Shown: positions 40,362 to 62,632 of the stretch, one piece after another
How positions within the stretch are numbered: the first letter of the stretch is position 1
Layout: every line of letters begins with the position of its first letter
NCBI RefSeq assembly: GCF_000794385.1
Contig: NZ_JTJB01000003.1
Location: 1 to 64,000, forward strand
Direction: 5' to 3'
Origin: Thermus sp. 2.9
GTDB lineage: Bacteria > Deinococcota > Deinococci > Deinococcales > Thermaceae
Length of the DNA: 64,000 bases
The notes under the pieces: model-generated
Database searches by the model: none
What the model was told of the DNA's origin: nothing
The model's input: the letters and a program-made list of their open reading frames with translations, nothing else
Program-made: the position numbers and the translations under genes

Positions 40362-40437
40362 GGGGCCGTGGCGCAGCTGGGAGCGCGCCTGAATCGCACT
40401 CAGGAGGTCACGGGTTCGAGTCCCGTCGGCTCCACCA
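40362..40437 (+). tRNA. tRNA-Ala (anticodon CGC)
   Basis: This is a 76-base cloverleaf with CCA encoded. The acceptor stem GGGGCCG pairs with CGGCTCC and contains the G3-U70 pair that identifies alanine tRNA. The anticodon stem CCTGA/TCAGG encloses ATCGCAC, giving anticodon CGC for codon GCG. The T arm is ACGGG-TTCGAGT-CCCGT. An integrase gene converges on its 3' end, so the tRNA 3' half is the probable attachment site of the prophage. Confidence 0.96.
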
Positions 40438-40457
40438 AGTCTGGGACGTGAAAACCG

Positions 40458-40479
40458 CCCCCCGGGGAAACCCGGGGGG
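40458..40479. terminator. Hairpin between tRNA-Ala and the integrase
   Basis: CCCCCCGGG-GAAA-CCCGGGGGG is a perfect 9-bp stem with a GAAA loop, between two convergent genes. There is no long T tract; AAGCTTT follows. It could stop transcription from either side. Confidence 0.6.
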
Positions 40480-40514: not shown

Positions 40515-41659
40515 TCAGCCTAGGTCTAGGACCCACCCCATGCGCTCTTCCTCCAAAAGGTGCCGGTAGATGCCCAAGGTGATGGTTGGGCTGGCGTGGC
40601 CCATGCGGTCCGCTACCACCTCCACGGGAGCGCCGTTGGCCAGGAGGAGGGAGCCGTAGGAGTGGCGCAGGTCGTGTACACGGATGGCGGGGAGCCCAAG
40701 CCGGGCCAGTACCCGCCGCAGGTAGTGGTCCGGAGCGTCTGGGTGGGCAGGGGTGGAGGGGTCCCGCCCAGGGAAAAGCCACATGCCCCGCGCTTCGGCC
40801 TCCGATAGCCCCTCGAGGGTTGCCCGGTACGCCCGCAGGCGCTCCAAGGTGGTGGGGGGAATGGGTACGGTGCGGTAGCTTCCCGGCGTCTTTGGCTCCG
40901 AAAGCTGGCCCTTTCCGTTCACCTTTATCCACGCCCGGCGCACGTGCAAAACGCCCCGCTCCAGGTCCACATCCCCCCATTGCAGGCCCATCGCTTCACC
41001 CCGCCGCAGGCCGCAGGTGAGCATGAGGCGAAGGGCCAGGGCGATGGGGGTTCCCCCCTCGTCCAGGGCCGCCAGCAGAGCGCGGGCCTCCTCCGGCTGG
41101 AGGGTGCGCCCCGGGGGACGCTTGGGAGGCAACTTCAGGCGCACCGGGGCCACGGGATTGCGCACAATCATCTCCAGGCGAAGGGCATCCTCAAATAGGG
41201 AAAAGAGCAGGGTCCGCGCCAAGCGCACGGTCCTCGAGGTGGCTCGGCCTTGGAGCTCCGTGAGGAAGCGGCGCACGTGCAGGGGCTGTACCGCCTGGAG
41301 GCGCATCCGGCCTAGAGGGTCGTGGGCGGAAGGGTTTTTGAGGGATGGAAGCAGGCGGGTGAGCTCGTAGCGGTAGGAGTTTAGGGTGCTGGGCCGCACT
41401 TCTTTGGCCTTCATCTCCAGCCACTGCTTGGCCCAATCGGCCACGGTGAGGCGGGTGGGCTCGGGCAGGAGCCCCCGATGATGCCGGGCTTGGAGCTCGG
41501 CAAGCTTTCTGGCCACTCAGCCCTGGTCCGGCCATAGACCTGGACGCGTTTGGGGTTGCCCCGCTCGTTGTAGCCGATGGTGATGGCACCCACCCACCGA
41601 CCGTCCTTCCGCTGGTAGATGGAGCCCTCGCCAGGAGGGCGCTTGCCTGTACGGGGCAT
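40515..41659 (-). CDS. int: Tyrosine recombinase (phage integrase), single-base frame break
   Basis: The N-terminal arm-binding region (MPRTGKRPPGEGSIYQRKDG) reads from ATG 41659. The core-binding and catalytic domains continue in another frame from about 41514 to 40515. One base is missing near 41514-41516, where GAGGTGGCC is expected and GAGTGGCC is found; adding it gives 382 whole codons. Catalytic residues are the arginine in CGLRRGEAMGL, the HDLRHSYGS box, the histidine in MGHASPTIT and the tyrosine in LGIYRHL. The start overlaps the repressor stop (TGATG). The indel is either a sequence error or it locks the prophage in place. Confidence 0.88.
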
Positions 41660-42330
41660 CAAATCCTCCGCACCAGGTTCACGGCCACGCCCAAGATGCG
41701 GTCGTGCTCTCCCAGGGGCAGGGGCGGGTGGGCGGGGTTATCGGAGTAAAGGTACCAGGAGCCGTTATAGCGTTGAAGCCGCTTGATAACTACCCCATCC
41801 CAATGCACATGCACGGCCACGACGCGCCCAGGTTCTGGCGCTCCCTCAGTCCAGAACACCACCACATCTCCATCGGTGAGGGTGGGCTCCATAGAGTCTC
41901 CCTTGACCCGCACCGCGAAGAGTTCGCGCTCCCCTTTGCCCCTTAGCTCGGGGAGATCCAGGGTGATGTATTCGGCGTTCTCGTTCCACATGGGCGGTCC
42001 CGCTCCTGCCTCAATGATGGGCATCCGGTAGCGCGTGGTGGGGATAAAACTGGAGGAGTCCACCACCGGGGAGGGGAAGCGGATGCCCGTGGCCTGGGAG
42101 AACTCTTCAGGGGTCCATTGAAGGGCGTTTAAGAGGCGCCTAAAGGTTTCAGGCTCTTTGGCCCACAAGTAGCGCAAAGCCCCCTCAGGATTGGGGAGCA
42201 CCTGAGTGGCTAGCCATGAAGCGCTTTTGCCTACCATCCGCGACACCTTTGGTTGCGAGAGCCCAAGCTCTTTTATCCGCTTACGTATAGCAGACGCCGC
42301 TTTTTCATGGGCCAAAATATCTGCACCCAT
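41659..42330 (-). CDS. Phage repressor with S24 peptidase domain (CI/LexA-like)
   Basis: This 223-residue protein has an N-terminal helix-turn-helix (about 16-50, GLSQPKVSRMVGKSASWLA) and a C-terminal S24 self-cleavage domain. Its catalytic serine is in KGDSMEPTLTDGD and the lysine in DGVVIKRLQ. Such repressors keep the prophage silent and are inactivated by RecA-stimulated self-cleavage after DNA damage. It has a GGAGGAGGT ribosome site. It is divergent from the cro-like gene across an 86-base control region and lies just upstream of, and coupled to, the integrase. Confidence 0.88.
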   Translation of the reverse strand: MGADILAHEKAASAIRKRIKELGLSQPKVSRMVGKSASWLATQVLPNPEGALRYLWAKEPETFRRLLNALQWTPEEFSQATGIRFPSPVVDSSSFIPTTRYRMPIIEAGAGPPMWNENAEYITLDLPELRGKGERELFAVRVKGDSMEPTLTDGDVVVFWTEGAPEPGRVVAVHVHWDGVVIKRLQRYNGSWYLYSDNPAHPPLPLGEHDRILGVAVNLVRRI

Positions 42331-45008: not shown

Positions 45009-45226
45009 ACACCGTACACGAGATGGGTTTGCGGGCGCATCAGGCGGAAGCGGTGCGGAAGCGGCTCAAGGGCATGGGCTACCAGGTGGACGTGGCCCAG
45101 CGCCGCCACAGCGTGGAGGCCTGGGCCATCTACGACGGGCGCACCGTGGGCTATGGCTCCGGGCGGGACGCCCTCGAGGCCCTCCGGTCCCTGGCCGGGG
45201 ACCTGGGCGTGGAGGTGCAGCCGTGA
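45005..45226 (+). CDS. Phage hypothetical protein, 73 residues
   Basis: This is a small protein that begins MNTVHEMGLRAHQAE, with one helix followed by a probable beta-hairpin (YQVDVAQRRHSVEAWAIYDG). It overlaps the methyltransferase stop and the next GTG. No family is recognised. Confidence 0.55.
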   Translation: MNTVHEMGLRAHQAEAVRKRLKGMGYQVDVAQRRHSVEAWAIYDGRTVGYGSGRDALEALRSLAGDLGVEVQP

Positions 45227-45396
45227 GGGGCGGCCCCTGGGACGCCGGTTTCGCGGTAGAAGAGGTCGCAGCCATCCTCCGGGACTACCGGGCCGGGCAC
45301 CTGGGCCCGGAGGAGGCCCTCGAGGAGGTCGCGCAGGCCTTGGTGGAGAACAACTTCGGGAGGCTCCTGGAGGAAGACTCCGCGGAGGAGGGGTAA
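45223..45396 (+). CDS. Phage hypothetical protein, 57 residues
   Basis: An open frame from GTG 45223 overlaps the previous stop (GTGA) and ends at TAA 45396, two bases before the next start. The product is acidic and helical (MRGGPWDAGFAVEEVAAILR start, EEDSAEEG end). Its perfect fit between two genes and normal codon use are the only evidence. Confidence 0.5.
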   Translation: MRGGPWDAGFAVEEVAAILRDYRAGHLGPEEALEEVAQALVENNFGRLLEEDSAEEG

Positions 45397-45398
45397 GC

Positions 45399-46238
45399 AT
45401 GAACAGGACGGAACTGGCGGTTAGGTGGAGCTTGGAGGACCTCGAGCGGGCGGCCCGCTACATGGTCAAAAGCGGGCTCTTCGGCTTGCGGTCCCCGGAG
45501 GAGGCGGTAGCCCTGATGCTCTTGGCCCAGGCTGAAGGGCTCCACCCCGCCCAAGCGGTGCGGGAGTACCACGTGATTGACGGGAGGCCCGCCCTGCGGG
45601 CTGACGCCATGCTGGCCCGCTTTTTGGCCGCGGGCGGGCGGGTGGAGTGGCACGAGCTCTCTGACCAGAAGGCGGAGGCTACCTTCTCCCACCCCCAAGG
45701 CGGCACGGTGCGCCTCTCCTGGACGATTGAGGACGCCCGGCGGGCCGGGCTTTTGGAGCGCAAGGGGAGCAACTGGCTCCGCTACCCCAGGGCCATGCTC
45801 CGGGCCCGGGTCATCTCGGAAGGCGTTCGCACCGTCTACCCCGGGGTAGCGGTGGGGGTCTACACCCCGGAAGAGGTGGTGGAGATGGCCCAGGAGGTGC
45901 CCCCGCCCAGAGAACCCCTCGAGGCCAAGCCGGAGCCCACAAAGGCGCTGGAGAGCCCGTCCGAGGACAAGCCCAAGCGGGAGCGCATCAGGGGCCTCCT
46001 GAAGGCCCTCGGGCTAAGCAAGGAGGAAGCCCGGCAGCTCGCCTCCTTGGTGGTGGAGCGGGAGGTGGCTTCGTTCGGGGACCTCGAGCCCCTGGAGGTG
46101 GACCTCCTCGTGGCCGAGCTGGAGCGCCTGGTGGCCCAGTTTGAGGAGGACGACGTGCCCGTGCTCGACCGGGCCGAGGTGGTGAGGGCGTACCTCCAGG
46201 AGGGGGAGCTTCCCCACAGGGAGGAGGTGGGGGTATGA
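45399..46238 (+). CDS. RecT-like single-strand annealing protein
   Basis: This 279-residue protein has the pattern seen in phage RecT-like pairing proteins: SPEEAVALMLLAQAEGLHP, then YHVIDGRPALRADAMLA (about 54-70), then SWTIEDARRAGL and WLRYPRAMLRARVISEGVR. These proteins anneal complementary single strands during phage replication and recombination. The C-terminal third is charged and Pro/Glu-rich. ATG 45399 follows a GGAGGAGGGGTAAGC ribosome region. It sits before the replication-type gene, the usual place. Confidence 0.7.
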   Translation: MNRTELAVRWSLEDLERAARYMVKSGLFGLRSPEEAVALMLLAQAEGLHPAQAVREYHVIDGRPALRADAMLARFLAAGGRVEWHELSDQKAEATFSHPQGGTVRLSWTIEDARRAGLLERKGSNWLRYPRAMLRARVISEGVRTVYPGVAVGVYTPEEVVEMAQEVPPPREPLEAKPEPTKALESPSEDKPKRERIRGLLKALGLSKEEARQLASLVVEREVASFGDLEPLEVDLLVAELERLVAQFEEDDVPVLDRAEVVRAYLQEGELPHREEVGV

Positions 46239-54281: not shown

Positions 54282-54527
54282 ATGCGGAAGCGGCTACAGC
54301 GCAAATGGGCCGAGGTCTGGGGCGCCTACGCCACCGCCTTGCGGATGGACGAGGCCATTCGGGAAGCGGCCCGGGGCTTGGAAGCGCACCACGAGCGCCG
54401 CCTACAGGCCATGCTTCCCCTCATCCCCGCGCCTGGGGCGCGAGAGGATGGCCTCGAGGCGGAGTACCTGGACACCCTCTTCCAGCGGCACATCGCCCGG
54501 CTGTACGCCGGGGATGAGGCGGGGTAG
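54282..54527 (+). CDS. Phage hypothetical protein, 81 residues
   Basis: This small helical, basic protein starts MRKRLQRKWAEVWGAYA, twelve bases after the helicase gene with a GGGGGTGAAGG ribosome region. No family is recognised. It is the last plus-strand gene before the AT-richer spacer and the CRISPR array. Confidence 0.55.
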   Translation: MRKRLQRKWAEVWGAYATALRMDEAIREAARGLEAHHERRLQAMLPLIPAPGAREDGLEAEYLDTLFQRHIARLYAGDEAG

Positions 54528-54974
54528 AGAAGGGCGTAGCCCGGTTCTGAAGGGAACGGGGGCCTAAGGGGGCGATTTGGCGGGTTGGGGGATGGGCCCT
54601 TACTTGCGGATGAGATAGCTACTTCCGCGGTTCGCCTAGATTTAGGCGCAAAGGCGCGTTTAACACTTTCTCATAGTGTAGTGAGCTCCGCAAGGTTTTT
54701 TCTGTCGCAAGTATATACTGAGTGCATCGTTGCGCTCATCTGCTATAATGGCCTTGTCCGAGGGTCGGACAGGGGATCTTGAAAGCCAGTTTTGCCCTTG
54801 AGGAAGGCGAATATGCGCTTTCACCTTCTCATCGCCCCTTCCGCAAGTAAGTTTTCATCGGGCTAAACCCCCAAAAACGGCCTTTATACGGCTTATGCAT
54901 ATTCCAAACTTCATCTTTCTCACAAACCCCCCCTCCAAGAGCAACGTCCAGGACGGGATTATGAGAGGGGTACA
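54528..54974 (+). other. AT-richer intergenic region, probable CRISPR leader with promoters
   Basis: These 447 bases carry no convincing gene and are clearly less G+C-rich than the surroundings. They hold a perfect TATAAT (54744-54749) and another -10-like TATACT (54714-54719). A 7-bp inverted repeat TGTCCGA-GGG-TCGGACA lies at 54755-54771. CTTACTTGCGGA (54599-54610) has an exact inverted copy at 54840-54851, and CTTGaGGAAGG (54797-54807) pairs with CCTTCCgCAAG (54837-54847). The stretch lies on the leader side of the array. Confidence 0.6.
54744..54771 (+). promoter_or_regulatory. Putative promoter with palindromic site ahead of the CRISPR array
   Basis: TATAAT is a consensus -10 box. The 7-bp palindrome TGTCCGA/TCGGACA starts six bases later, at the expected transcription start, and could be an operator or a 5' hairpin. 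The only feature downstream on this strand is the CRISPR array, about 200 bases away. No strong -35 box is seen. Confidence 0.5.
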
Positions 54975-55534
54975 GTTGCACGAGATGCTTCCCCGCAAGG
55001 GGATTGCGACCTTTGAAGCCTCGGATTTTGCGCTTGTCTTGACTCGTCAAGTTGCACGAGATGCTTCCCCGCAAGGGGATTGCGACCACTTGATGGCCCC
55101 GACAAAGGTTAGGGCCACGCCCGGATGGTTGCACGAGATGCTTCCCCGCAAGGGGATTGCGACCTAGCGCCTCCACCGCCTTCCAGAACTCATCCCACTC
55201 TTGTTGCACGAGATGCTTCCCCGCAAGGGGATTGCGACCGCGCCCTCCGGCAGTCTGATGGCGGCCTCTATCGTGTTGCACGAGATGCTTCCCCGCAAGG
55301 GGATTGCGACGACAGAAAGAACTTATGGCCTCTAAACATTCGTCCTCCCTACAGTTGCACGAGATGCTTCCCCGCAAGGGGATTGCGACGCCTTGGCCCA
55401 GCTCCGGGGGGGACGGTGAGAATCGCGTTGCACGAGATGCTTCCCCGCAAGGGGATTGCGACTCCAGGTACAGCTCACGCTCCCGCTCCCAGCGTTTTGT
55501 TGCACGAGATGCTTCCCCGCAAGGGGATTGAGCT
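54975..55534 (+). CRISPR. CRISPR array, 8 repeats of 36 bp and 7 spacers
   Basis: Repeats start at 54975, 55051, 55128, 55203, 55275, 55354, 55427 and 55499. The first 20 bases are GTTGCACGAGATGCTTCCCC and the last 8 ATTGCGAC, with a CCCC-GCAA-GGGG hairpin in between. Seven copies are identical; the eighth changes after ATTG and is the terminal one. The ATTGCGAC end, like the usual 8-base crRNA tag, and the decayed last copy both put transcription left to right. Spacers are 40, 41, 39, 36, 43, 37 and 36 bases. Repeat and spacer lengths resemble Thermus type III arrays. No cas gene is in the window. Confidence 0.97.
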
Positions 55535-55550: not shown

Positions 55551-56405
55551 TCAGACCCCTACCCGCCACTCCAGGGTGTAGTCCCCAATGCGGTAGGGCC
55601 TGCCGTAGGCGGCGTAGGCGTCCAGGATGCCCTCGAGGGCCATCTCCGCCCCGTAGAGGACCGCGCTTCCCAGGTCCAGCATCCGGTCCGCGCGGGTGAG
55701 GGTGAGGCCGTCCCACCCTAGGGCCTCTAGGAGGGGGAAGTCCGCCAGGAGGCGGGCGGTGAAGTAGAGGGCCAGCTCATCCCGCTGCCCCGGGCTTTCC
55801 GCCAGGAGGAGGACCTCCGCCACCGCGCGGAAGGTGGCGGTGAGGTCCCGATCCCCGAAGGCCCGCTCCGCGAGGGCGTAGCGGGCCTTGATGAGGGCTT
55901 GGGGAAGGGGCTTCTGCTCGTGCACGTGCTCTTGGAGGGCCACAAAGACCCCCCGGGCCTCCCCGTGGAAACGCAAGCGCTGGTACAGCACGCGCTTCAC
56001 GTCCAGGACCAGGCGGGCCTCCGCCTCCCGCCGCACCGCCACCGTGGCGGTGGCGGGCTCCCCGTACTGGCCCTCCGGGGTTTTGGGCCAGACGTGGTAA
56101 GTCCAGCGGCCCCCCTCCAGGGGCCGGCGCTCCTCCCCAAACGCGGCGGGGAAGGCCTCGAGGTCCCACACCTCCCCCCCCTCGGGCAGGGAAGGGCGCG
56201 GTTCCCGCACGAAGGGATAGGCGCGGCTGGGCCTGGGTGGCCCGTCCCAGACCAAAAAGCCCCCGGGGTCCTCGGGGCCGGCGAGGGGCGTGCCCTCCGG
56301 GGCCCGGAGGACCCGCACCCAGGGGTAGCCCTGGGGCAGGGTGAGGAAAAGCCGCACCGCCCCGCCCTCGGGCCGGGGCTCGGCCAAAAGGTGCAAGACC
56401 CTCAT
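55551..56405 (-). CDS. Phage hypothetical protein, 284 residues
   Basis: This is the last gene of the minus-strand late cluster; its stop is 17 bases from the CRISPR array. Its first half has beta-rich, Pro/Gly segments that look like a small immunoglobulin-type domain (GGRWTYHVWPKTPEGQYGEP). The second half is helical (RYALAERAFGDRDLTATFRAVAEVLLLAE). It overlaps the next gene upstream by four bases. It may be a tail or baseplate component, but no family is recognised. Confidence 0.55.
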   Translation of the reverse strand: MRVLHLLAEPRPEGGAVRLFLTLPQGYPWVRVLRAPEGTPLAGPEDPGGFLVWDGPPRPSRAYPFVREPRPSLPEGGEVWDLEAFPAAFGEERRPLEGGRWTYHVWPKTPEGQYGEPATATVAVRREAEARLVLDVKRVLYQRLRFHGEARGVFVALQEHVHEQKPLPQALIKARYALAERAFGDRDLTATFRAVAEVLLLAESPGQRDELALYFTARLLADFPLLEALGWDGLTLTRADRMLDLGSAVLYGAEMALEGILDAYAAYGRPYRIGDYTLEWRVGV

Positions 56406-57259
56406 GCCCCACCTCCCGCCAAGGCCTTGAGCCGGTTAACGTCCGCCTCTAAGGCGATGCGCATCACCTCGGGGTATACCTGGCGTAGCCAGTCGTAGAC
56501 CGCCCCGGCGATGCGGTAGCCGGGGTGCTCGGGGATGACCCAACTCCCTGGGGGGCTCTTCTCGGAGAGGGTGCGGAAGGTGAGGTACGCGCTCCGGCTT
56601 TCGCTCGGGGTGGAGGCGGCCTCGAAGCGGTGTAGGCCCGCCAGGCGCTGTACCTGGGGGTCCGAGGTGTCCAGCCCCAGGGCCTCGAGGTCGCCCAGGG
56701 TGAGCCGGTCCCCCCATTGGTAGCGGAAGCGGCGGGCGAAGGCGCTGGGGTCGTGGACCGAGGGCTCGTGGTGCACGCCCACGACGCGGCTTTGGGCCAT
56801 CCGCCGCGCCCGGGCGTACACCTCCTCCGGCATCACCGAGGCGAAGCCCACCGCCCCCGGGGTCCCGTGGCGGAAGGGGATGTGCATGTAGAGGTGGCCC
56901 GCCTTGGCCCGGCGGGCTTGGTGGCTTCGCTTCAGGACCTCCCGCAGGTCGTAGGCGGGGCGCCCCCACTCCAGGGCCGCGGCGTAGGGAGCCTTGGCCT
57001 TGAGGGTGTAGCTGTGGTCCGCCTCCGCTTCCAGGGTGATGCTCCGGGCGTAGTTGCCCGTGCGGGGCTGGACGCGCTCCCCCGAGGGCAGGGGTTCCCC
57101 CAGGGCGTAGCCCACCCACTTCCGGTGCGCGGCCACCGCCAGGTCCCGGATGGCGGCGAGCTGGTTGGGGAAGAGGGCCTCGGGCCGGTGGGTGGCCAGG
57201 GCGATGGCCCGCTCGAAGGGGCTGGGAAAGCCGATGCTGACGCTGACCTCGTAGCGCAT
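56402..57259 (-). CDS. Phage tail-completion-like (HK97 gp10-type) protein
   Basis: This is a 285-residue protein. The stretch ARSITLEAEADHSYTLKAKA followed by PYAAALEWGRPAYDLREVL resembles gp10-type neck proteins, in which a PYAxxxExG pattern is common. The remaining part is of unknown fold and ends in a helical segment. It lies between other connector-like genes on the minus strand, three bases after the upstream gene. Family assignment is tentative. Confidence 0.5.
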   Translation of the reverse strand: MRYEVSVSIGFPSPFERAIALATHRPEALFPNQLAAIRDLAVAAHRKWVGYALGEPLPSGERVQPRTGNYARSITLEAEADHSYTLKAKAPYAAALEWGRPAYDLREVLKRSHQARRAKAGHLYMHIPFRHGTPGAVGFASVMPEEVYARARRMAQSRVVGVHHEPSVHDPSAFARRFRYQWGDRLTLGDLEALGLDTSDPQVQRLAGLHRFEAASTPSESRSAYLTFRTLSEKSPPGSWVIPEHPGYRIAGAVYDWLRQVYPEVMRIALEADVNRLKALAGGGA

Positions 57260-57262
57260 GCC

Positions 57263-58183
57263 TCACCTCCCGTAGGCCGCGCCGGGGCGGGGGAAGAGCT
57301 CCCAGACGCGGAGGTGCAACCGGCGGGGCAGGGAATGCCCGCCCTGGTGCCGCACCTGGGGCAGCTCCCGGAAGACGTAGAACTCCGGGGCGGCGATGTA
57401 CGTGAGGGTGTAGGGGGTGCCCATCCGGGGCCCCCGGCCCGGGGTCCAGACCACCCGGCCCGCCTCGAGGGTGAAGTCCTCCCCCGGCGCGTAGGCGCTG
57501 GGGCGGAACTGGGCGTCTAGGGCCTCGCATCCCAGGACCTGGTAGACGTACGCGTATAAGAGGTGCTCCTCCTCCCCCCGGTGGAGGACCTGGGAAACCC
57601 GCACCCGCGCGTCCACGAGGACGAAGCGGTCGGGGTAGGCGGCGAAGAAGGCGGGGTTGGCCACATACCTGCCATCGGGGAGGCGGGTACGGGCGGGGAG
57701 GGTGAGGCTCAGGTCCCGGTGGTCCAGCTCCCCGTACTCCCCCACCTCCTTCCGCCCCGCCAGGTTCTGCCCGTGCCCCCGCGCTACCAAAGGCGCCCGC
57801 ACGCGCACGTGGTAGGCGGCGCCTTCCGGCGGGGCCTCCCCCACGAAGCGGATTTGGCCGTCCTCGAGGGCGATGGCGTAGCTCCTCCCCTCCTCGTCCC
57901 AGACCGCCATCACCTCCTCCGGGCGGAGGTGGCGGGGAAGGGCCTCGGGCCGGGCCGCGGAACCCCGGTGGAAGGTGAGGGTCCACTCCACCCTCGGGGG
58001 CGGTTCCCAGGTGAAGCCGTAGCCCCGGCAGCGGGGGCAGGTGGGTTGGGGGCTCCCCGTGGCCCGGTCCCGGCAGGGGCAGGCCCGGGCGGGGAGGTAG
58101 AGGAGGGCCCAGGACTGCTCCCCGTTCAGGAGCTCGTCAAAGTGCTCCAGGTGGAAGGCGTACCCGTCAAAGGAGTGCCTCAT
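57263..58183 (-). CDS. Phage structural protein with zinc-binding cysteines
   Basis: This is a 306-residue protein. Near residues 34-55 it has CPCRDRATGSPQPTCPRCRG, a likely zinc site as found in phage neck proteins of the DUF-type family. The rest is beta-rich. ATG 58183 overlaps the upstream stop by four bases; the open frame further upstream lies in another gene. I cannot name the protein. Confidence 0.55.
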   Translation of the reverse strand: MRHSFDGYAFHLEHFDELLNGEQSWALLYLPARACPCRDRATGSPQPTCPRCRGYGFTWEPPPRVEWTLTFHRGSAARPEALPRHLRPEEVMAVWDEEGRSYAIALEDGQIRFVGEAPPEGAAYHVRVRAPLVARGHGQNLAGRKEVGEYGELDHRDLSLTLPARTRLPDGRYVANPAFFAAYPDRFVLVDARVRVSQVLHRGEEEHLLYAYVYQVLGCEALDAQFRPSAYAPGEDFTLEAGRVVWTPGRGPRMGTPYTLTYIAAPEFYVFRELPQVRHQGGHSLPRRLHLRVWELFPRPGAAYGR

Positions 58184-58971
58184 GCGCTGAAGAGGATGGG
58201 CCCCTTGATGGAGAAGTAGGTCCGGAGGAACGCCTCCAGCTCCTTCTCCAGGGCGCTTTGGTAGGGGGAGAGGCGGTGGCTGGTGGCGCTCACGGGGTAG
58301 CTCCGGCTCTGGCTGAGGCCGTCCACGCTCACGCTCTCCGAGGCCACCGCTCCTTCCTGGAGCATGGCCAGGGTGGGCAGGAGGAGGATGGCGGCCCGGG
58401 CCGCCACCGCCCAGGCCAGGTCCGGCTCCTCCTCGAGGACGTCCCCAAACCCCGCGTCGTAGGCGATGCGCCACCCGTTGGGGATGCGCCTGCCCCCCGC
58501 CACCACCCCCGTCCACACCCCGCTGAGCTGCACCATCTGCGCCGAGGTCCATCCCGGGTAGAGGCGGAGGGCGTAGCGGCGCCGGCTCACCTGCCACCAC
58601 TCCCGCGGGAACTCCAGCACCGGGGGCAAGGCCTGCCCCCCCAGACCCAGGGCCACGTAGCGCACTTCCCGGATGGGGCCGTAGGGGAGCTTCAGAATGC
58701 TCCAGCGGTCCCCCTTCCAGGCGTCCGGCTCGTAGTCCGGCCCTTCCCCCCGGAGGATGGGCAGGCCGTCCTCGGGCAGGCGGGCCTGCGGCACCGCCCC
58801 CAGGACGACCCGGGTGGGGGCGAAGAGGACGCCGAAGGCCCGGGTGAACCAGGCCTGGGCCGCCTTAAGGGCCTCCTCCAGGTGGGCCTCGGGGTACGGC
58901 CGGCCCTCCTTGTCCTCCAGGGGGACCCCCCGCAGGAAGCGGTCCCGCAGGTACTGGGCCGTGAGGGGCAT
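58180..58971 (-). CDS. Putative phage head-tail connector protein
   Basis: This is a 263-residue protein starting MPLTAQYLRDRFLRGVPL. It is helical at the ends (YQSALEKELEAFLRTYFSIKG), with a central beta region containing WQVSRRRYALRLYPGW. Length, helix pattern and its place near the start of the minus-strand late block suggest a gp6-like connector. This is an inference from context. Confidence 0.45.
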   Translation of the reverse strand: MPLTAQYLRDRFLRGVPLEDKEGRPYPEAHLEEALKAAQAWFTRAFGVLFAPTRVVLGAVPQARLPEDGLPILRGEGPDYEPDAWKGDRWSILKLPYGPIREVRYVALGLGGQALPPVLEFPREWWQVSRRRYALRLYPGWTSAQMVQLSGVWTGVVAGGRRIPNGWRIAYDAGFGDVLEEEPDLAWAVAARAAILLLPTLAMLQEGAVASESVSVDGLSQSRSYPVSATSHRLSPYQSALEKELEAFLRTYFSIKGPILFSA

Positions 58972-58974
58972 AGG

Positions 58975-59417
58975 CTAGAGGGCCTCATCCAAAAGGCGCA
59001 CCAGGTCTTCCTTGGAGGCCTCCTCGGGGGCCACCACCTGGAGGGCCTCGAGGGCCCGCTTAAGCTCCTCCTTGGGGAGCCTGGCCTTGGCGCTTGGGCT
59101 CATGCTCCGGTAGCGGGCGCGGAAGGCCTCGAGCCAGTCTTTTTCCGCGGGGGAGGGGCCCAGGCCCGTTTCCTCCGTGGGGTTGGGCGCACCGCGGCCA
59201 CGGGGGGCGTGATGAGGTCCCCGGTGGTGGCGTCAATCACCGCGTAGCCCGGCACCTGGCGGAAGGGCTCCACCTGCTTCAGGCTCACGGGCTCGGAGAC
59301 CACGGCGCCAAACTTGTCGCTCCAGCCGAAGAGGATGCCGTTCACCTTCACCCTCTGGCCCTTCTTCACCGCGTCCAGCACGCTGGGCACACCGACCACT
59401 TTGACCCGGTAGTCCAT
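58975..59417 (-). CDS. Phage hypothetical protein, frame broken by one base
   Basis: The N-terminal part (MDYRVKVVGVPSVLDAVKKG) is a small beta domain with VKVNGILFGWSDKFGAVVSEP. After about residue 77 the frame shifts. With one G added to the GGG run at 59185-59187 (plus strand), the protein continues RPNPTEETGLGPSPAEKDWL and ends in a helical tail rich in Lys and Glu (LVRLLDEAL), 147 residues in all. The adjusted length is an exact 148 codons. ATG 59417 follows GGAGGTGAGC. It is the first gene of the minus-strand late cluster. Confidence 0.6.
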
Positions 59418-59449: not shown

Positions 59450-59475
59450 GGGGTCAGGGGGCTCTGACCCCTAAG
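59450..59475 (+). promoter_or_regulatory. Control region between divergent late gene blocks, with inverted GGGGTCAG/CTGACCCC
   Basis: GGGGTCAG (59450-59457) and CTGACCCC (59464-59471) form an inverted repeat in the 77-base gap between the minus-strand and plus-strand late genes. A TAGGGT lies at 59489-59494, directly before ATG 59495. The TCTGACCCCT core is repeated near other plus-strand late genes. Confidence 0.5.
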
Positions 59476-59494: not shown

Positions 59495-60469
59495 ATGGAG
59501 CTCCTCACCTTGCCCCAGGGGGTGGACACCCTTCTCATCCCCCTGCCCCAGGCGGTGCGGGCGGAGCCCGGCACGCGGCGCGTCCTCTACTTCGAGGCCT
59601 CCCGGGAGGGCGTGGTGGACCGGGAGGGCGAGGACATCGCCGCGGATGCCCTTTGGGCCTCCCGGGACCTCTTCCTGCGACAGGGCAACATTGACGTCAA
59701 CCATTGGTCTTGGCTCGGCAACCCCCCGGGGACCGGGATGCGCCCGGAGTACGTCATCGGCCTGCCCCTGGAGGTGCGCCGGCAGGGCCCGAGCATCTTC
59801 GTTAAGGCGGAGCTCTTCAGCAACCTGGCCCCACCCCCGCCCGGCTCCAGCGGGGAGTGGGCGGACCGGGTGTGGCACTCCCTCACCCAGATGACCCCGC
59901 CCATGCGCTGGTTCCCCTCCGTGTTCGGCAAGCTGGCCCCCAACGCCACGGTGGAGGTGGAGCTACGGGACGGGAAGCGGGTGCGGGTGCTCAAGGGGCC
60001 CATCGAGTGGTACTCCGTGGGCCTGGCCCAGCGGGCGCAAAACCCCGCCTTGCCCCCGGTGAGCCTGGAGCCGATGGGGGCGTTCGCCAAGGCGGAGGGC
60101 GCGGGGGACGTGCGGGTGATGGGGCAGGTGGCGGTGGTGCCCTACCGCACCCTGGCCAAGGCCCTGACCCAGGCGGCGCTGCTCACCGCGGGCGACCCCC
60201 AGGCCCTGGACGCCAAGGCGGGGCTGAGCGGGGTGCCCGCCCTGCGGCGGGAGTCCCTCGAGGCCCTCTACCGCCAGACCGCCCCCAAAGTCCTGCGGGG
60301 GCTCCTAACGGGCCGGGTGGAGGGGAGCCTAAAGGGGGTGATGAAGGCCTTCCTCCGCCTGGGCGTGCCCGAGCGCGTCGCCAAGCGCTTCACCACGCGC
60401 TTGGGAGAGGAGATTTTGGCTCTGACCCCTAAGGGAGGGCAAGGTGAAAGCGTGAGGAGGAAGCCATGA
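59495..60469 (+). CDS. Putative phage prohead protease (XkdF-like)
   Basis: This is a 324-residue protein. The region FEASREGVVDREGEDIAADA followed by QGNIDVNHWSWLG resembles the start of XkdF-type prohead proteases, in which the His comes early. The EWYSVGLAQ segment (about 171-179) could hold the catalytic serine. It precedes a scaffold-like and a capsid-like gene, the usual order. Residues about 231-257 almost match the capsid N-terminal region. ATG 59495 has no ribosome site and directly follows TAGGGT; GTG 59522 is another option. Confidence 0.6.
   Translation: MELLTLPQGVDTLLIPLPQAVRAEPGTRRVLYFEASREGVVDREGEDIAADALWASRDLFLRQGNIDVNHWSWLGNPPGTGMRPEYVIGLPLEVRRQGPSIFVKAELFSNLAPPPPGSSGEWADRVWHSLTQMTPPMRWFPSVFGKLAPNATVEVELRDGKRVRVLKGPIEWYSVGLAQRAQNPALPPVSLEPMGAFAKAEGAGDVRVMGQVAVVPYRTLAKALTQAALLTAGDPQALDAKAGLSGVPALRRESLEALYRQTAPKVLRGLLTGRVEGSLKGVMKAFLRLGVPERVAKRFTTRLGEEILALTPKGGQGESVRRKP
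60185..60265 (+). repeat. 81-bp segment shared with the capsid gene, copy 1
   Basis: It matches 61244-61324 at 71 of 81 positions, in the same frame, and encodes TAGDPQALDAKAGLSGVPAL. It lies near the C-terminal third of the protease gene. Confidence 0.85.
60421..60430 (+). repeat. TCTGACCCCT motif, copy 2 of 4
   Basis: The 16-base context GGCTCTGACCCCTAAG (60418-60433) is identical to 59460-59475. It lies 35 bases before the scaffold gene start. Further copies of the core are at 62672 and 62788. Confidence 0.7.
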
Positions 60470-61141: not shown

Positions 61142-62632
61142 ATGGACGGGTTGACCAACATCCTCTTCGGCGGGGGGCTTCCCGGCTTCCCCAACGGCAT
61201 TCGGACCCTGGAGGACTGGCAGGCCTTTGCCAAGGCGGTGCAGACCGCGGGCGACCCCCACGCCCTGGACTTCAAGGCGGGGCTGAGCGGGGTGCCCGCC
61301 ATCCGCCTCGAGTCCTTGGAGGCCACCCTGCGGAGCGTGGTGGAGCGGGAGGAAACCTTCCGCCTCTACAAGCGCCTCACCCCCGTGCCCGCCTTTAGCT
61401 CCGTGGCCGAGTGGGCCACCCAGGTGGGCACCGGGGGCGACATCGCGGATGCCTTCCACTCCGAGACCTCGGACATCCGGGGGGCGGTGGGCGAGTACCG
61501 GCGCAACATCCTCCGGGTGAAGTACCTCATGACCCGGGCGGAGATTAGCCTGGCCGCCTTGCAGCAGCGCACCGTCTTGGGCACGGGGGACGACCTGAAG
61601 GCCCGGGAGAACGTGAACGCCACCCTGCGCCTCCTTCGGGGCCTGGAGTGGGCCCTCTTCCAGGGGGATGAGGCGGTGGTGCCCACGCAGTTTGACGGCA
61701 TCCGCGCCTGGCTTGCCAAGGAGTTCCCGGACCACATCCTGGACCTAAAGGGCTCCAGCAACGTGGACGAGCTCTACGCCGCCATTTACCAGGCCTTTGG
61801 GCGCACCATCGGTCCGGATGGCGGTTTTGGCCGCATCACGGACGTGTACCTTTCCCCCGCGGTCCAAAACGACCTGGACCTTCACCTCCAGCCGCAATGG
61901 CGCGTGGCCCTGGACGATAACCCCCGGGCCGTGGATTACGGGGCGCCCGTGCGGGCCATCCGCACCTCCTACGGGGACGTCATCACCACCCAGGACGTCT
62001 GGATCGAGGACCCCGACGCCGCCCACCTCACCACCCCGGCGGAGGTGCGCACCCGGGGCCGGCTTTCCCCCGAGGCCCCTGCCGCCCCCACCCTGAGCGC
62101 GCAGGCCATCACCTCTGACCCCAACAGCCGCTTCCAGGCGGCCCAGGCCGGCACCTACCACTACGCCGTGGCCGCCATCGGGGAGGGCGGCGAGGGTCCC
62201 TTGAGCGCCCTCGAGGCCGTCACCATCGCCGCGGGCGGCGGGGCGGAGCTCACCATCCAGCCCCCCGCGGGCTACCGCCAGACGGGCTACGCCATCTACC
62301 GCTCCACCAAGGACCCCGCCACCCTGCCCACCCCGGCGGACCTCCGCCTCGTTAAGCGCATCCCCGCGGGCTCGGACCCCACCCAGCCCGTGGTCTTCCG
62401 CGACCTTAACCACGACATCCCCGGCTCCGCCACCCTCTACCTCCTGGACCTCAGCCCCGAGGCCATTGACTGGACGCAGCTTTTGCCCATGCTCCAGTTC
62501 CCCCTGGCCCCGGTGAAGGCCACGGTGCCCTGGGCGGTGCTCCTCTTCGGCGCCCTCAAACTGGGCATTCCCCAGCGGCATTGGGTGGTCAAAAACTACC
62601 TGCCCAAGGCGGCCCGCTGGAAGCCCTTCTAG
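61142..62632 (+). CDS. Putative major capsid protein with immunoglobulin-like insertion
   Basis: This is a 496-residue protein. The first about 310 residues have the layout of tailed-phage capsid proteins, with helical N-terminus, AIYQAFGRTIGPDGGFGRIT and DVYLSPAVQNDLDLHL. Residues about 317-430 form a fibronectin/immunoglobulin-like beta domain (AAPTLSAQAI, YHYAVAAIGEGGEGPLS, YAIYRSTKDP). The C-terminus PWAVLLFGALKLGIPQRHWV returns to a capsid-like domain. It follows GGAGGTAGCGG and ends just before a strong terminator, as expected of a highly expressed gene. Confidence 0.65.
   Translation: MDGLTNILFGGGLPGFPNGIRTLEDWQAFAKAVQTAGDPHALDFKAGLSGVPAIRLESLEATLRSVVEREETFRLYKRLTPVPAFSSVAEWATQVGTGGDIADAFHSETSDIRGAVGEYRRNILRVKYLMTRAEISLAALQQRTVLGTGDDLKARENVNATLRLLRGLEWALFQGDEAVVPTQFDGIRAWLAKEFPDHILDLKGSSNVDELYAAIYQAFGRTIGPDGGFGRITDVYLSPAVQNDLDLHLQPQWRVALDDNPRAVDYGAPVRAIRTSYGDVITTQDVWIEDPDAAHLTTPAEVRTRGRLSPEAPAAPTLSAQAITSDPNSRFQAAQAGTYHYAVAAIGEGGEGPLSALEAVTIAAGGGAELTIQPPAGYRQTGYAIYRSTKDPATLPTPADLRLVKRIPAGSDPTQPVVFRDLNHDIPGSATLYLLDLSPEAIDWTQLLPMLQFPLAPVKATVPWAVLLFGALKLGIPQRHWVVKNYLPKAARWKPF
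61244..61324 (+). repeat. 81-bp segment shared with the protease gene, copy 2
   Basis: It matches 60185-60265 at 71 of 81 positions, in the same frame, and encodes TAGDPHALDFKAGLSGVPAI near the N-terminus of the capsid protein (about residues 35-61). Confidence 0.85.

Follow-up and report, generated by a model that had tools for sequence, protein, structure and literature searches.

A leader-equipped type III CRISPR array inside a Thermus prophage, probably host-powered and directed against competing phages

Our analysis of a 64,000-nucleotide window of the Thermus sp. 2.9 genome (part of contig C3; coordinates are those of the window unless the contig is named) leads us to conclude, with a probability of about two in three, that a prophage carries a leader-equipped CRISPR array from the host lineage, and that this array would provide type III immunity against competitors, powered by the host. 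The location of the array, its leader and repeat, the cas genes of the host, the match of spacer 4 and the attachment site shared with the target of that spacer can all be read from the DNA itself. Virus-borne arrays without cas genes are a known kind; this one stands out for how complete it is, for its type and position, and for what it targets.

An 87-bp perfect direct repeat, found with blastn-short and by exact matching, bounds one element of about 51.4 kb (the two copies are 51.35 kb apart; Table 1). From the array it is 14.6 kb to attL and 36.2 kb to attR. The presence of the right attachment site, which the first-pass annotation had seen as the way to prove the point, places both flanks in one prophage, and the array therefore lies within a viral genome. 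Between the att sites, from the repressor through the portal, the encoded proteins have counterparts in Thermus phage Cumys, many of them 65-85% identical; homology to Cumys and phiMa is found on both flanks of the array, and the array is absent from both phages. On these sequence grounds we assign the carrier, which is integrated at tRNA-Ala(CGC), to the temperate Thermus myoviruses around Cumys and phiMa. An IMG/VR entry is apparently the same provirus from the same assembly. The first-pass annotation had also offered the idea that a host array was split by two separate integrations, and the flanking blocks are indeed transcribed in opposite directions; but there is only a single integrase and a single att pair, and both sides carry Cumys-like genes, so that we reject this idea and leave it almost no probability.

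Table 1. Features of the prophage and its array (window coordinates).
Feature	Position	Strand	Remarks
tRNA-Ala (CGC), attachment gene	40362..40437	+	ARAGORN
attL, 87-bp core over tRNA 3' end	40393..40479	+	attR at contig C3:91745-91831, beyond the window
Tyrosine integrase	40515..41516	-	PF00589, E 7e-28; 34% identity to Cumys integrase; related to Riverbug integrase
LexA-like repressor (Peptidase_S24)	41659..42330	-	PF00717; Cumys_59 homologue
RecT-like annealing protein, early gene	45153..46238	+	PHROG 561
Phage helicase, 1622 aa	49401..54269	+	Cumys_43 homologue, 77%
Last early gene	54282..54527	+	Cumys_42 homologue, 69%
CRISPR leader	54614..54974	+	about 360 bp, canonical Thermus type; homologous to leaders of known Thermus arrays
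Spacer 1	55011..55050	+	leader-proximal; searches without target
Spacer 2	55087..55127	+	searches without target
Spacer 3	55164..55202	+	searches without convincing target
Spacer 4	55239..55274	+	35/36 match, tape-measure gene of Riverbug-like prophage, G007:C1:1483480-1483515
Spacer 5	55311..55353	+	searches without target
Spacer 6	55390..55426	+	searches without target
Spacer 7	55463..55498	+	weak partial match 25/27, another Thermus genome
Inverted tail-gene block	55551..59417	-	Cumys_34-38 homologues (tblastn)
Head maturation protease, first non-inverted late gene	59495..60469	+	Cumys_41, 81%
Major capsid protein (MCP)	61142..62632	+	Cumys_39, 83%; genes 33-31 absent after MCP

The array itself (54975-55534, + strand) consists of eight direct repeats of 36 bp separated by seven unique spacers, in the position and with the repeat number first annotated. 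The repeats start at 54975, 55051, 55128, 55203, 55275, 55354, 55427 and 55499. Seven are identical (GTTGCACGAGATGCTTCCCCGCAAGGGGATTGCGAC), and the eighth is degenerate at its 3' end only (...ATTGAGCT); the spacers, all distinct, are 36-43 nt long. These are the hallmarks of a CRISPR array: at least three near-identical direct repeats, unique spacers of similar size and, here, a leader abutting the first repeat. With up to three mismatches allowed, the repeat pattern occurs at 22 sites in the whole genome; the reversed pattern, used as a control, occurs at none. The repeat is predicted to fold into a hairpin with a GNRA loop and a 3' tag, ATTGCGAC. It is of type III class: its 3' half is that of the T. 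thermophilus HB27 III-A/III-B repeat (PMC10989782), and near-identical host repeats adjoin type III genes, which bears out the earlier description of a Thermus type III-like repeat.

The leader (54614-54974) had been overlooked by the first-pass annotation, as had the inverted state of the adjacent "late" genes. It resembles the leaders of arrays on other contigs of the same genome (93% identity over 357 bp for C10, 99% over 245 bp for C54 and 89% for C62). Further afield, 20 other genomes of the genus have related leaders, as do megaplasmids of Thermus, HB8 pTT27 among them. In a leader tree, the prophage leader groups with the host C54, C10 and C62 leaders (support 98/97), and those of other Thermus species stand apart. 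Because it clusters with the host's own leaders, the array has most likely been exchanged with this host lineage. We looked upstream of the leader for a Cas1 remnant such as has been described for HB27 and found none, nor was a sigma-70-like promoter found within the leader. The other arrays of the host genome (C54, C62, C10, C18 and C55) are short or ended by contig edges; in the C10 array, the 3' tag is changed at two bases (ATTGATAC) in both repeats.

The prophage repeats are set apart from those of the leader-matched host arrays by one base, a C in place of T that is the same in all eight. This base is the N of the GNRA tetraloop, which reads GCAA in the prophage and GUAA in those host arrays, with no change in the predicted hairpin; since the closest host repeats differ only there and share the predicted fold, host Cas6 should accept the prophage repeat. 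That one base is common to 8/8 repeats, unlike in the leader-matched host arrays, would fit expansion of the array after its entry into the phage lineage. The one other array in which we found the exact prophage repeat is from T. altitudinis and contains a mixture of repeat variants. Within the assembly the repeat is confined to the prophage array, which argues against an assembly chimera in which the near-identical leader served to stitch a host array into the contig of the prophage. Such an artifact could be imagined in a draft genome of 62 contigs, where contig C54 starts at the point at which its leader becomes near-identical to that of the prophage, and where the IMG/VR copy appears to come from the same assembly. 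Nevertheless, the right end of the array continues through unique spacers into a tail gene, and if only the leaders had been swapped, a prophage that is otherwise complete from att to att would have been broken; we consider a chimera extremely improbable.

The array sits at a REARRANGEMENT rearrangement breakpoint. In Cumys, phiMa and the hot-spring contig IMGVR_3300020567_000131, all of which lack the array, the genes run in one direction in the order helicase, 42, 41 (protease), 40, 39 (MCP), 38-34, 33-31, 30 and 29 (sheath); a further contig, _000391, has the same order but covers it from the MCP onward only. In all these relatives, the tail block is downstream of the MCP gene and reads the same way as the early genes. 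Here, helicase and 42 are followed by leader and array, next by the inverted 34-35-36-37-38, and then by 41, 40, 39, 30 and 29, an arrangement that two nested inversions would yield. Inverted repeats sought at the breakpoints were mostly GC-rich coding matches, with nothing convincing among them. The array had originally been placed between early genes ending at 54527 and late genes ending at 55551. Both coordinates are correct, with 16 bases between the end of the array and the late-side gene, and the early side stands; the "late" side, however, is the inverted tail block rather than an ordinary late operon, and it is because of this inversion that the array appears to separate early from late genes.

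The rearrangement raises the question of whether the array is a passenger, a host array moved into a decaying prophage by the event that inverted the tail genes, still working for the host, with its phage location accidental and no longer mobile. Its position at a breakpoint and a leader nearly identical to one of the host's would both suit this explanation, as would the damage nearby: the Cumys_38 homologue is frameshifted (58978-59417, - strand), genes 31-33 were not found in the prophage, and the inverted tail block may be partly inactive. Taken together, the inversion, the missing genes and the frameshift mean that the prophage may be defective. Against this, the captured piece comprises leader and array only, with no further host genes; the inverted block retains near full-length matches to genes 34-37; the open frames of integrase, repressor, portal, terminase, capsid and sheath are intact, and most structural genes keep an open frame; and the att sites are perfect. 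We therefore regard a passenger array as unlikely, although it is the alternative to which we give most weight.

If the prophage uses the array, it probably does so with Cas proteins of the host. Whole-genome searches for Cas1, Cas10/Cmr2 and Cas6 gave no match on contig C3, in agreement with the earlier observation that no cas genes are near the array; the viral element thus lacks the families searched. The rest of the genome supplies them: contig C18 has cmr genes with Cas10 (Cas10/Cmr2) and csx1, adjoining an array; C55 has a second Cas10, csm4 and cas6; C54 has csx1 and cas1, with arrays on their flanks; and C61 has type I-E genes. A cognate effector and Cas6 are therefore present in the same genome (C18 and C55). 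Moreover, a search for cas loci with the same repeat, as the first-pass annotation had suggested, does find arrays with near-identical repeats beside type III genes: host arrays whose repeats differ from the prophage repeat at one or two positions adjoin csx1, cas1 and cmr genes. In HB27, artificial mini-arrays are reported to give interference by means of this type III system (PMC10989782); all type III arrays that retain a leader are reportedly transcribed, and type III arrays reportedly gain new spacers during phage infection (PMC7515739). The prophage array is likewise predicted to be transcribed and processed into crRNAs.

Repeats that fit the host system could also serve the opposite end, as an RNA anti-CRISPR or decoy whose host-type repeat transcripts occupy host Cas6, Csm or Cmr and so shield the phage. 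Phage repeats without cas genes can act in this way, according to the Racr work as cited in PMC11656645 (see also PMC10651486). Racr, however, are solitary repeat units, whereas the element here combines a full leader with eight repeats and seven real spacers, one of which matches another phage, and a decoy is accordingly very improbable.

That spacer is spacer 4, which differs from its target at a single position, spacer nucleotide 5, near the 5' end of the crRNA (about 2e-11 such matches are expected by chance). Over the 14 kb compared, the targeted prophage, in genome G007, and phage Riverbug are 90% identical. Orientation and flank are those that type III targeting requires: the crRNA would lie antisense to mRNA of the tape-measure gene, and between the 3' flank of the target (CCTACTCT) and the crRNA tag there is no pairing. 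The targeted prophage also occupies tRNA-Ala(CGC), with an identical 45-bp att core and a 71%-identical integrase; Riverbug itself has at least 27 bp of this core. The position of the mismatch counts against the favored reading, as does the absence of the protospacer from cultured Riverbug, in which the best match, 23/36, is at noise level. The authors of PMC11437467 reasoned that different tRNA sites should spare related phages competition in lysogenisation; unlike in their separate-site case, carrier and target here use one tRNA site. The spacer thus targets a competing mobile element and not the carrier, and the earlier suggestion that a phage-borne array could exclude competing phages gains support, so far as a sequence match can provide it.

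The remaining six spacers had no target in the phage, plasmid, Thermus-genome and IMG/VR collections searched. The comparison with phages and plasmids originally proposed gave nothing credible for any of the seven, and it was among Thermus genomes that the spacer 4 match emerged. No significant match was found in the host's own genome outside the array, and none above shuffles or noise in the carrying prophage. Ungapped scans of Cumys, phiMa, Riverbug, Lalka8, part of phiFa and P23-45, and the own prophage likewise gave noise except for the known spacer 4 match; these were judged against 20 shuffles, and a few scores 1-2 above the shuffles were counted as noise. In IMG/VR, the cores of five spacers recovered only the same provirus, as did the general type III repeat core, and leader plus array had no match among INPHARED phages. 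A 24-nt Brachyspira match to one spacer (E 5) was dismissed, and the partial match of spacer 7, near a RecJ-like gene in genome G005, was too weak to retain. As a control, seven spacers from the host's own arrays were compared with other Thermus genomes and gave no matches, so that one of seven for the prophage array is suggestive but not statistically separate; with a target for one of seven spacers, the aim at site-sharing rivals rests on a single case.

The model of prophage-borne, host-powered immunity that we favor would work as follows. In the lysogen, the leader would drive transcription of the array, and host Cas6 would cut each repeat hairpin, leaving ATTGCGAC as the 5' tag on the crRNAs. 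Loaded with these, the Csm (III-A) and Cmr (III-B) complexes of the host would recognize transcripts of superinfecting phages and activate Cas10 and the Csx1 nucleases. With the spacer 4 guide directed against a phage that integrates at the same tRNA, the prophage would guard both site and host from a direct rival, and it would bring the immunity of the array to every new host with a compatible system; interference and benefit to the phage, like transcription and processing, are thus predictions of the model. A further step, which we advance tentatively, is that the array might be an updatable weapon, a captured, leader-equipped type III array with which the phage defends its attachment site as host Cas1-Cas2 adds spacers that guide Csm and Cmr against same-tRNA competitors.

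Several known systems resemble this one in part. The mini-CRISPR arrays of Saccharolobus portogloboviruses SPV1 and SPV2 (PMC6858448) are likewise virus-borne and leader-equipped, with no cas genes, host-type repeats and spacers against competing viruses; but they have one or two spacers, and these closely related archaeal viruses target each other, whereas here seven spacers and type III repeats are carried by a tailed bacterial prophage, and the target is a different phage group with the same attachment site. In Clostridioides difficile, prophage arrays, which are the most expressed there, are processed by host machinery and have been proposed to block competing phages (PMC6079278). Our array shares their prophage location and, presumably, host processing; theirs is type I-B, ours type III, with a spacer aimed at a prophage that, in another strain, occupies the same att site. 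Thermus phages Lalka8, 27a and 27b, distantly related myoviruses of which Lalka8 and 27a also use tRNA-Ala, similarly have CRISPR-like arrays within structural modules, proposed to form a separate type V system (PMC11437467); those have 29-bp repeats unlike Thermus CRISPR and lie beside tnpB, in contrast to the canonical host type III repeats and leader, with no tnpB, seen here. Phage and prophage mini-arrays and solitary repeats (Faure et al., 2019, as cited in PMC6858448 and PMC11656645) are also phage-carried repeats without cas genes; the mini-arrays, as reported there, are leaderless with one or two spacers, compared with a full leader and seven spacers in this prophage. Finally, the HB27 type III arrays (PMC10989782, PMC7515739) share the 36-bp repeat class (...CCCCGTAAGGGGATTGCGAC), and homologous leaders occur on Thermus megaplasmids, but they are host-borne, on chromosome or megaplasmid.

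The finding makes it possible to test in Thermus, on a concrete case, whether a tailed prophage borrows the type III immunity of its host: the targeted gene is named, a matching rival prophage is at hand, and the two share an att site. Type III systems have been characterised in T. thermophilus, which also has phages related to carrier and target (Cumys, phiMa and Riverbug), so that the recruitment and updating of whole arrays by phages, and their use in holding an integration site, are directly testable.

The prophage has other distinctive genes. A DarT/DarG toxin-antitoxin pair, present in phiMa and absent in Cumys (PMC11437467), lies among the baseplate genes (contig C3:71743-73631; L024:7743-9631, - strand). 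Inserted among the portal-side head genes is a methyltransferase with an HSDR-like N terminus, together with a specificity subunit (contig C3:85417-88979; L025:1417-4979, + strand); the pair has mad2/mad5-like matches and is probably a third defence module. Where Cumys and phiMa have an rSAM/DUF483 module, this prophage has a Kelch-repeat protein (contig C3:78753-79736; L024:14753-15736). Lastly, TCTGACCCC, which occurs in neither Cumys nor phiMa, is present in the prophage in seven copies on the + strand and none on the - strand, with about 0.5 expected per strand (window 59463, 60421, 62114, 62672 and 62788; contig C3 77828 and 80206). The copy at 59463 is preceded by a partial inverted copy that faces the inverted block. 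Five of the seven copies precede the start of a late gene by 23-45 bp, and the motif is possibly a late promoter or activator site.
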